From NCBI RefSeq assembly GCF_964204645.1, contig NC_134027.1:2592485-2656484 (forward strand): a DNA stretch of 64,000 bases, in the 5' to 3' direction. The notes below the pieces were generated by a model, which was given only the letters and a program-made list of their open reading frames with translations, was not told where the DNA came from and did not search any database. Position 1 is the first letter of the stretch, and each line of letters opens with the position of its first letter. Below are positions 56,571 to 61,770 of the stretch, piece by piece. Both the position numbers and the translations under genes were made by a program. This stretch comes from Tubulanus polymorphus. Lineage: Eukaryota; Nemertea; Palaeonemertea; Tubulaniformes; Tubulanidae.

Positions 56571-59500
56571 ATGAATCAGTTACTATTCTACACACTCTCA
56601 CTGCTAGGTGAGTATCACAGGCGGCCGTTTCACAGACGACTACTTGAAGCTTCCTTAAAGTTCCATTTGTATCGTGTTATCAGGACTAATAGAACGTTTT
56701 CGTTTCGACGAAGCGGCCCCCATTTTCACAGATAGGAAGAACCAATGTATCTCTGTGAATGTTTTTAACTTTATCCAAAGAGTGAACGAACTGTTGAGTG
56801 GAAACTGGTCTTTCTGGCTGGAAACTGGATTCAACAACTGATGAGCTAAATCCCTGTCTGTTCGGGGAAATACTGTAACTGAATCGTCACCATTATCACC
56901 ATATTATATTCACCTGTAAACGAAAGTATGGTCATTGATGAAAGCGAAAAAAAACATTCCACTAGACAATTCATCATTCAGTCGGATTTAAGCTATAGTT
57001 TACTGAATAATTCAACGCGCACACGTGCGCTGAATAGTGACAAAAGTGTCCTTAATATCACATTCAAAAACACCGTTCAAAATAGATTTGTAAAACGTCC
57101 TTCAGTTTTGCGATACGCGATGAATATAACGCTTTTTCAATAATGAATCGTTTTAAAATAACTACACCGGATATTCATATGTAAACCAATAGGTGTCCAT
57201 GTATCGTCGACAGAAATCTACACCAGTACCTGGTGTTACATAATAACGATTTTTATTCGACGCAGAGACTTACATCAATGAACCGCAGCCCAAAAATACG
57301 CGCAATTATGTAGTTATTTATTGCGAAATTTTTAATAATGACAAATGACGAAAGCGCGAGTGAGTAGTGAATATGTAATTTTGATGCGCACGGTGTTTAG
57401 TCTGCGCGAAGACTGTCGGTTTGATATAATATACTTGACAAGTTTTGACAATCATGCCATCCGAATAACTGAATAGTGATAGTAATTAGTTGAACATGGC
57501 AGGCACGAAAAGGAAGAAACGATGCCAATTGCCCGTATTCAGACTTATTTATACACTCATTGTGCGCCTAATTATCCTCACAATCAACTGACAAAAAGCA
57601 ATAAGCCATCGACAAAAGAATCTACCAAGGCGGAAGATTGTTAGACCGTATCACCGGCACGTCAAGAGGCCCTTCTTCGGCGACAGCTCCGATGATATAT
57701 GAGTTGCTTATTAATGAGTCATTTTAATATTTGACGATATAACAGTTTCTTTGCTTTCTGATAGTTAGGAAATTAAGCTGCCGTTTTCTGTAACGAAGAG
57801 GCCAGACTTTCGCTTGTGAATGTTTGAATGTGCGCTATCGTTAGTTGACGTAAAGGTCCATCCATCAATGTCTTTTTCGAAAACGGTCAGAAGACCATTT
57901 ATCTCAGCAGTCGAGGTTTAAGTCCGGCCGATTTACAGACGATGAACCGTGCTGCCGAATTTACATGCATTTACATTTGGAAGCGATCGAATGCTGGGAA
58001 ATTGATCATCTCACTACGAAAGGATGCGAAATAAACCGTCCTGGAATTTCCGTGCAATTAAACGAAATAGTTTGGAATGTCGCGTCCCTCAATAAAAATA
58101 TCACATCAATGGCATCGATAAAGTAAATCTTCCTCTATACTATACTCATTGGCGATTTCTCCCGTTTCTATGGGGATCTATAAGGATTATATACTGTATT
58201 GGGAGGTTAGCTCATATTACTGGTTCCTAAATCTCTATTTCAGTTTTAAGCCCACCAAGTTATGACAAGATTGCTAAGATGACCTTTTAAAGGCACCGCA
58301 GTGAATTTCAGGGAAATTCATATCAAAAATTCATATTAATCAGCCGAGTATTTGAAAAAAGGCATTACATCGCGATTGAACAGTCTTAAACGAGTCCATG
58401 GCGAGCACTTCTTATATCGACATGCATTCTTACTAATTAATTATTGAAACTATCAAGGAAACCAATGGGATTTGAACCGCTCTAAAATAACTATTGTTCA
58501 TTTAACTGCGACCTGTGCTTCACATTTATTTCCGATAGTATAAAAACTTCATACGTATATACATTTTCAGCGTTAATCCCGATGTGTATTTCAAGTGGAT
58601 CTTGCCCACCGAAAATGGTTCGGAAAATGATGTCATGTTTGGAGATTCTACCTAAAGTGAGCGGAGACGCCTCATTTTCTCGATCAGATGTACCGGTTAT
58701 TGGTAACGCCGACCCGGAGGAAGTCGAGCGTCAATGCAGGTATCTCATCTCCAGAAGTGTTATACATCTTCGAAGATGTTTATTAGTGAATTTACACTTC
58801 GTGTAGGATAAGTGTTTACAATCACGGTTGCTATTATTGATCGCCTATCGACGGTTTTGAATTTATCATCAATATACAGATTGTTCTCTGTTTCTGAAGC
58901 ATATTATTACATGTAGAATTCGTTGGATTTAATGACAACCTTTCCGGGAAATATCGCGACTATCTGAGCTAATTTATGTTTCCGGAGTTGCATGAATGAT
59001 GTAGATTATGAGAATGATGAAATCCCGACCACTGCTCAACCCTATCCTCATATTGTATCGATCTATAATTAACTACGGTTATACAGTCGTCTAGAGACCT
59101 CTTAAAATTTGCACCCGAACAAAAGTCATATCGGTGCGGATTGTTAATTTTTGTATCGTAAATTATATTTTTTGTTGTTGTAGAGACGGTTCTTATATAG
59201 CTGCAGTCGAGTGTATAGAGAACGCTATATCATCTTGTTCGAAACAAATTCTCGGAATGATAAGCGAACTGATTGATACATCACAACTACAGAATATGAT
59301 CAATGAATTCTGCCAAAATACTAACGGTAAGACATCTGTGTGCATGCGCGGGTTGTATCATCCCCGCGCATACACCGGGAAATATCGATGCACAAACAGC
59401 GATCCCGAAAATTAATTAATGATATAATGATGTGATGCGTTTTTATATAAAGTCTATAGATGGGGATCGCCGTGTTTGAGAAGAAACAAAGAAGGTCTAC

Positions 59501-61770
59501 AGAACTGCTCGAGAAAACAGTTGGAGATGCAGGACCAAGCGACTACAAGCTCTAAAGACAAAAAGGACATCAATAAGATGCTAGACGCCATCTGCGGGCA
59601 AGTCCAATTGATTAACTTTTTTGTTGTTTATCCAGTTTTCAAATTTGATTCAAAACTGCCGTCACTGGAAAAGCCGCAGAGCTTTATGGAAGATATCAAA
59701 GCTTCTTGCGAACTAAACAGCAGAATTCATCATCAAGACTAAGCCATGTTACAGTAAAGATCAAAATGTTTGTAAGCAAATGCGATGAGTTGGGTAATAC
59801 ATTTAAATTTTAAAAATGCCTTTCATATCGCGAACAAGCGACATGGCGGAACAAGTTGTTATCTCAGTCAACAACTGAGCGTTTGCTTTTGTCACAAATT
59901 TTAATTAGACTCGTAACGTGTCGGTTCATCGTCTCATCTCAAATAGAACAGCTACACTGGAAACACTAGAAACGCTAGACCCTTCTTTATACTTGTCTTG
60001 TTAGTTGTGGATGACGTTAATGATAAACGATGCATACGATCGCTTTTTAGCTGAAGGTGATATTTTTTTTTCGCTTCGGCTCGTAGAATAACCTCTACAG
60101 AGATTGGATATCGTCAAATTCGGGACCACACTCAATCCAAAATGGTTTTGAATCATAAGACTGGAAATCAATCGTTTATAGAACTGTAGATTTTGCTGTT
60201 TGATATTAGCCTTGACTGTGCAATTGGCCTCGCGTCATCTTTCCTAAATTTAAAAGCACTTGATGAATATTACATTTTCGGAATCTTAACGGAAACTGTA
60301 ACGATAGAGAGATAGCTCATATTGTCACCGCACAGTTTTGCTGCTGTTATCGAATCTGATTCATAATATTTGCATAATATTTGAATGTTAATGATAAGAT
60401 ACGGGTGAAAATTGTCCTCGTGAGAGATTTTTATATCACTATTCCATGTTTTCTAGTCTAAATACGGCGCGCGCACGCGCGATCGCTCAATAAATCCTTC
60501 CATTTTTCAACACCACGTGATTCGGTTGTGCTGTTTATTTGATACGCATCTCTAGGTTTCACAGGATCTATATCAGACACGCGTTTTGATCATACCGACG
60601 TATATATATATATATATATATATATATATATATATATATATATATATATATATATATATATATATATATATATATATATATATATATATATATATATATA
60701 TATATATATATATATATATATATATATATATATATATATATATATATATATATATATATATATATATATATATATATATATATATATATATATATATATA
60801 TATATATATATATATATATATATATATATATATATATATATATATATATATATATATATATATATATATATATATATATATATATATATATATATATATA
60901 TATATATATATATATATATATATATATATATATATATATATACTTTTAGTTTGCCATTAATAAAATCCTTCGTGACGCCGTTTAAAAGCGATCGAAACAA
61001 AATTTTAGCGGCAGTGACGATACGGTTGACTATAAAATCTGACAGTTTTACATCCTTAAGCTATCTGTTTCTATGTGACGAGCATCATCAACTAATGGAC
61101 AAACATTTACTCCGGCTAATATCGACCGGGAATGAAATTATAAAAACCAGTCACGGATCGCGAACGAAAATGGCAGTCGAATAAAATCTGAATAACAATC
61201 CTCACAAATGTGAATAGCATGAGAAACATTTGTTTGCGTCTGATGTCGAATGTCGAATGTCGAAGTCGAGCAGACGGCAGTGTCACTTTTTCCTTTCCTT
61301 TAAATCAAAAGGGAATGATTAATCAATATATCATTGACAACGAGACAATTTTAAAAGTATATTTCCAAGTTCGACTGGACAACTTTCAATTTAAAAGCGA
61401 TTACTGCATTTTATTTTTTTTATATCAGTTTTCATCGAAATGATTCCTAAATTTTCTTTGTGATTTCCACTTTAAAGATTTTTTACCTCTTATTTATTGT
61501 TTTTGTAGCGCTAACGCGTTTGGGATGGAATGTACGTATTCGGTGCTGGTGAAGAACTGTGGATCGCCGATTGCTAACTTACTTCAGCACCTATCGAAGG
61601 CGCCGTTGTCTCCGAGATGTAACAAGGTCTATGACCAGTTCGTCTCACGAAACGAAAAAAGTCAACAACTATCCTCTCCTAAAAGTCATTCACCCACAAT
61701 CACGTATAACAGAGCCTTATGGACGACAGTAGCCTTGATCGCCGTTCTGAGCTCGATATTTCAGTCGTAG
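56571..61770 (+). CDS. Secreted, probably GPI-anchored 12-cysteine protein of unknown function
   Basis: Five coding exons: 56571-56607, 58571-58739, 59184-59326, 59453-59597 and 61509-61770 (756 nt, 251 aa). The N-terminus [18 protein letters not shown] is a signal peptide. The C-terminus ends in a hydrophobic tail ([18 protein letters not shown]) with no charged residues after it, as in GPI-attachment signals; a short TM anchor is the alternative. The mature part has 12 Cys at about 24, 35, 68; 79, 87, 112; 124, 135, 164; and 173, 182, 202. That makes four C-x(7-10)-C-x(19-32)-C triads, one per exon. The exon phases (1,2,1,2) imply two copies of a two-exon, six-Cys module. Helical Cys-rich domains such as DUF19/T20D4.11-like are a loose resemblance only. 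The ATG exon opens at an acceptor (56558), so a 5' UTR exon lies upstream. Intron 4 appears to be GC-AG. I do not recognise the protein. Confidence 0.72.
59338..59375. repeat. GC-rich hairpin 11 nt inside intron 3 of the 12-Cys gene
   Basis: CATGCGCGGG pairs almost exactly with CCCGCGCAT (9-bp core), extended by GTGT/ACAC, with a loop around TTGTATCATC. It begins about 11 nt after the exon 3 donor (59327). Confidence 0.6.
60601..60942. repeat. (TA)171 microsatellite
   Basis: Uninterrupted TA dinucleotides over 342 bp in the last intron of the 12-Cys gene. The open frames across it on both strands (Ile-Tyr repeats) are artefacts. Confidence 0.99.

Follow-up and report, generated by a model that had tools for sequence, protein, structure and literature searches.

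What kind of protein is encoded by g1, a five-exon gene on the plus strand at positions 56571-61770 of a 64,000-nucleotide stretch of Tubulanus polymorphus DNA (contig C3, 2592485-2656484; hereafter the window), and to which known proteins might it be related? A sequence-only reading had taken g1 for a glycosylphosphatidylinositol (GPI)-type protein of an undescribed or lineage-specific family, in which a helical six-cysteine module had been duplicated as a pair of exons. We found that g1 belongs to a family of complete genes with the same five-exon layout, the same intron phases and invariant module cysteines. We give an even chance to the reading that its product enters the secretory pathway and is a GPI-anchored surface protein with two six-cysteine modules, one of at least three encoded by full family genes, most likely serving as a ligand or co-receptor. 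The exons of g1 were as follows.

Exon 1, 56571-56607, plus strand: start codon, followed by the larger part of the presumed signal peptide; phase 1 out; layout common to the paralogues pA and pB.
Exon 2, 58571-58739, plus strand: module 1, cysteines 1-3; phase 1 in, phase 2 out.
Exon 3, 59184-59326, plus strand: module 1, cysteines 4-6; phase 2 in, phase 1 out.
Exon 4, 59453-59597, plus strand: module 2, cysteines 7-9; phase 1 in, phase 2 out; GC donor.
Exon 5, 61509-61770, plus strand: module 2, cysteines 10-12, linker, hydrophobic tail and stop codon.

These exons joined in a single 756-nucleotide frame of 251 amino acids, with intron phases of 1,2,1,2, at C3:2649055-2654254. All donors were GT except that of exon 4, a GC donor whose context was otherwise good (gcaagt, window 59598); pA and pB carried a GT donor at this exon. 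Each of exons 2 to 5 held one cysteine triad, with gaps of 10,32 (exon 2), 7,24 (exon 3), 10,28 (exon 4) and 8,19 (exon 5), giving 10,32,10,7,24 across module 1 and 10,28,8,8,19 across module 2. A thirteenth cysteine, residue 18, lay inside the presumed signal peptide. Judged by hydropathy only, the protein was hydrophobic at both the N-terminus and the C-terminus, with three residues after the C-terminal segment, a pattern expected of a signal peptide combined with a GPI signal. The number of exons, the phases, the single triad per internal exon and the hydrophobic start and tail had all been described from the sequence, and each was borne out.

The genome (267.8 Mb, 77 contigs) was searched with the g1 protein at an expectation value (E) of at most 0.001, and candidates were scored exon by exon, so that the family counts are lower bounds. 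The search returned six matches, four of them in g1 itself and the remaining two at other places on its contig. Two complete paralogues were recognised, namely pA (302 amino acids, plus strand, starting 11.8 kb downstream of the g1 stop codon) and pB (268 amino acids, minus strand, near 845 kb on the contig of g1), which were 39% and 32% identical to g1, respectively. Both had five exons in the same phases as g1, and the module cysteines were invariant (12/12) in all three genes. Differences among the three genes were most frequent at codon position 3, followed by positions 1 and 2, and synonymous divergence (dS) was saturated, as expected for a gene kept by selection. Searches of the genome with the pA and pB proteins, again as a lower bound from exon-by-exon scoring, gave no further convincing member. 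None of the 46 pattern matches in viral contigs and none of the 61 in prokaryote genomes was confirmed as a relative. The family in this genome comprises at least three full genes, g1 included.

Several features of the loci were recorded in passing. Intron 4 of g1 contained a tract of pure TA repeats, 342 bases long (window 60601-60942). Intron 2 of pA, the phase-2 equivalent of g1 intron 4, also had a GC donor (gcaagt, L006 1680). By eye, an acceptor-like tract was seen 12 bases upstream of the start codon in g1 (window 56541-56558) and 23 bases upstream in pA (L006 235-250), so a non-coding first exon is possible in both. Just downstream of pB, a 76-base tandem repeat was present in four copies that were 99% alike (L010 4298-4600).

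We then considered the equivalence of the exon pairs 2+3 and 4+5. Introns 2 and 4 cut the codon after Cys3 and Cys9, respectively, in phase 2 in all three genes. The introns ahead of the modules were both in phase 1, with intron 1 eight to eleven residues ahead of the first cysteine in module 1 and intron 3 seven residues ahead of that in module 2. Modules 1 and 2 resembled each other in their cysteine gaps: only 172 (g1), 1179 (pA) and 881 (pB) of 100000 permutations were as alike, and under uniform placement the counts fell to 6, 81 and 32 of 100000, respectively. Alternatively, the two halves may not be duplicates, their cysteine and intron likeness having arisen by convergence or chance, and several results weigh on that side. 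Outside the cysteines, the observed score between modules 1 and 2 was reached by 134 of 1000 anchored shuffles, and the two segments that scored best out of five, numbers 4 and 5, were equalled by 89 and 99 of 1000 shuffles. An hhalign comparison of the modules found no in-register match and paired exon 3 with exon 4 (probability 1.9), and module 2 of pB matched the neuritin profile NRN1, while its module 1 matched nothing. With no likeness beyond the cysteines, the match claimed between an 11-residue stretch of exon 3 and a 12-residue stretch of exon 5 reflects mostly cysteine spacing. We nevertheless regard non-duplicate halves as unlikely, given that in all three genes the two halves have an intron at the same distance from the third cysteine and in the same phase, and given the gap permutations and uniform placements above. 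The equivalence of the exon pairs is supported, short of proof, on the basis of introns and cysteine spacing, and the modules are probably old duplicates. If the doubling is real, it is older than the family, since each of the three full genes carries both modules.

The C-terminal arrangement was also shared by the three genes. By hydropathy only, the hydrophobic segment ended 3 (g1), 4 (pA) and 0 (pB) residues before the C-terminus, which leaves no cytoplasmic tail and agrees with the GPI-type layout proposed earlier. The linker from the last module cysteine to this segment measured 32, 81 and 61 residues, respectively. The N-terminal hydrophobic segment was strong in g1 and pA. That of pB was weaker (17-residue windows all ≤1.5; 12-residue maximum 1.88, vs 2.42 and 2.16), which counts against the GPI-anchored reading. 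Another explanation is that the tail is a transmembrane helix or remains unprocessed, making the product a single-pass membrane protein or a plainly secreted one, for example a humoral immune protein like some DUF19 proteins. The layout was judged by hydropathy only, and DUF19 of Caenorhabditis elegans is listed as a family of secreted proteins: PMC3534327 gives 51 genes, of which 42 have a signal peptide and 14 are upregulated in one or more infection scenarios. However, with the hydrophobic segment 0-4 residues before the C-terminus in 3/3 genes, we think a membrane-spanning or freely secreted product improbable. An immune role of the family is possible.

In the GPI-anchored reading, the signal peptide would direct the protein into the secretory pathway, and a GPI anchor would tether two tandem, cysteine-locked modules, by way of the linker, to the outside of the membrane. 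The modules would bind a protein partner as a surface ligand or co-receptor, and the protein may be shed. Binding of this kind at the cell surface is the most parsimonious interpretation. Each module is probably helical, probably with three disulfides. Two single-sequence AlphaFold2 models were all-helical, with predicted local distance difference test (pLDDT) scores of 40.7 and 48.2, a low confidence that speaks against relying on them, and the proposed fold is not drawn from these models.

For family placement, g1, pA and pB were compared with Pfam, whose curated cut-offs are 27 bits for NRN1 (PF15056), 23.2 bits for DUF19 (PF01579) and 25.7 bits for DUF1397 (PF07165). Weak matches to three families were obtained. 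Residues 117-180 of pB, within module 2 only, matched NRN1 (E=0.0074, 16.9 bits, profile 3-62 of 89); residues 31-174 of pB, spanning both modules, matched DUF1397 (E=0.043, 13.6 bits, profile 32-186 of 207); and residues 108-193 of pA matched DUF19 (E=0.25, 11.6 bits, profile 59-144 of 157). Each of the three families was thus matched by one member, with g1 and pA unmatched by NRN1 and by DUF1397, and g1 and pB unmatched by DUF19. The sole Pfam match of g1 was to REX1B (E=0.023), which, like a match to GULLO2 (E=0.18), we set aside as chance by our own judgement. PF02351, the GDNF receptor alpha/GAS1 family, was not among the Pfam matches of g1, pA and pB at E≤10. Sequence searches of the PDB returned zero, one (E=1.3) and seven matches (best HSP70, E=0.43), none of them credible.

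Profile searches of the genome gave no match to NRN1 and none above the cut-off for DUF1397, where the best place (15.7 bits) contained two stops and was judged chance. Genome matches L026, L027 and L040 were likewise rejected as chance, having internal stops and a cysteine pattern that did not match. The DUF19 profile reported one place (E=9.96, not significant alone), an exon resembling exon 5, which led to a doubtful fourth relative, pC.

pC, L013 about 2777-7200, reverse strand: stretches like exons 2, 4 and 5.

In pC, the exon 5-like stretch agreed with exon 5 in its spacing and in the phase of its acceptor. Upstream on the same strand, the exon 2-like stretch was in phase 1 in and phase 2 out and ended just after the third cysteine. 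The exon 4-like stretch was in order on the same strand but began in another phase. A possible last exon held an open frame that included a hydrophobic stretch. In comparison with the family profile, exons 2+4+5 scored 13.4 bits, above all 1000 cysteine-preserving shuffles (best 11.1), and exons 4+5 scored 14.7 bits with an assumed join (1/1000 shuffles) and 7.3 bits with a frame-keeping GT join (7/1000); for exons 2, 4 and 5 taken singly, 29, 7 and 11 of 1000 shuffles did as well. These counts are flattering because the exons were picked by eye. Against DUF19, exons 4+5 gave E=0.00028 with the assumed join, which lacks a donor, and E=0.004 with the frame-keeping GT join, and exon 5 alone gave E=0.063; the scores ranged from 13.5 to 21.2 bits by join, all under the 23.2-bit cut-off and the best on the assumed splice, for a locus whose exon 5 had itself been selected by the DUF19 profile. 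Besides these conditional DUF19 scores, several observations weigh against pC as a full member: exon 3 was sought and not found, exon 4 had neither a GT nor a GC donor at its expected end, and exon 4 alone did not match DUF19. Nor was pC recovered by the genome searches with the g1, pA and pB proteins. It may be a diverged or decaying relative, and our conclusion does not rest on it.

As a control for the Pfam matches, pC module 2 and the pB ectodomain were each shuffled five times with their cysteines preserved. NRN1, DUF1397 and DUF19 appeared in none of the ten, and three unrelated matches were obtained, the best at E=0.024 in one of ten. With a shuffle at E=0.024, the values of 0.043 and 0.25 fall inside the range of chance, and 0.0074 lies close to it. 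Such E-values prove little alone, and the argument for kinship rests on the matches agreeing in kind. This bears on two explanations. In the first, the family is a lineage-specific invention and the weak matches reflect a shared cysteine-rich, helical composition, the product still being a GPI-type surface protein. The missed cut-offs of all three members, the shuffles reaching E=0.024 with unrelated families and a genome lacking an NRN1 match and anything over the DUF19 or DUF1397 cut-off all fit this explanation. On the other hand, two of three members matched three families of secreted animal proteins, the DUF1397 match was collinear across both modules, and no shuffle gave any of the three. 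On this balance we regard a lineage-specific origin as a real but somewhat less than even prospect. In the second, neuritin, arthropod DUF1397 and nematode DUF19 would be branches of a single ancient superfamily of animal proteins built from helical six-cysteine modules, with the g1 family as a bridging, double-module, GPI-anchored form; we hold this proposal to be doubtful, and the results for the joins and single exons of pC made the DUF19 link weaker. Kinship with the three families is weakened by the absence of any passed cut-off, by the lack of an NRN1, DUF1397 or DUF19 match in g1, by the failure of pB module 1 on its own to match Pfam, by the shuffle values and by the empty NRN1 search of the genome. 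By the curated cut-offs, the proteins are assigned to none of the three families, and the suggested kinship with DUF19, DUF1397 and neuritin amounts to leads. The earlier claim of an undescribed family formally stands in that no cut-off was passed, and it is qualified by the weak matches of the paralogues to neuritin, DUF1397 and DUF19.

By layout, the nearest known proteins are neuritin and the secreted DUF19 and DUF1397 proteins. Neuritin carries one six-cysteine module, placed between its signal peptide and its GPI signal, and its cysteine gaps of 9,24,8,7,27 resemble those of module 2 in the family (10, 19-28, 8, 7-8, 19). The GPI-type layout would be shared, but neuritin has one module, whereas all three family genes encode two modules with 12 cysteines. 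DUF1397, the insect 27-kDa hemolymph glycoprotein family, has known members that are soluble; the pB alignment to it spans both modules, but involves one of three family members and lies under the cut-off. Neuritin is described as 142 amino acids in all with one module, and as having a membrane-bound and a shed form (PMC12715718), its receptor is described as unclear (PMC4125179), and C. elegans DUF19 proteins are given as 140-220 amino acids (PMC3534327). Among the papers listed on neuritin homologues in invertebrates, no title concerned an invertebrate neuritin, and literature searches for neuritin-like proteins in invertebrates and for the three Pfam accessions together gave nothing.

Elsewhere in the window, a long open frame on the plus strand (27350-28438) contained a beta-lactamase-superfamily domain (PF12706, E=2.1e-40) and resembles NAPE-PLD. 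On the minus strand, an open frame at 9881-10384 matched ubiquitin carboxyl-terminal hydrolase (PF00443, E=6.5e-07), and a 559-amino-acid open frame at 11773-13452 had no Pfam match at E≤0.001. A tRNA-Ile (AAT) gene was located at 6654-6729 on the plus strand.

The Pfam names of DUF19 and DUF1397 mark both as families of unknown function. If the joint kinship is true, a single fold and mode of action would become a testable hypothesis for these families and neuritin, and neuritin-like biology would extend beyond vertebrates. If it is false, g1 and its paralogues would represent a new, small family of surface proteins with a neat exon-pair architecture.

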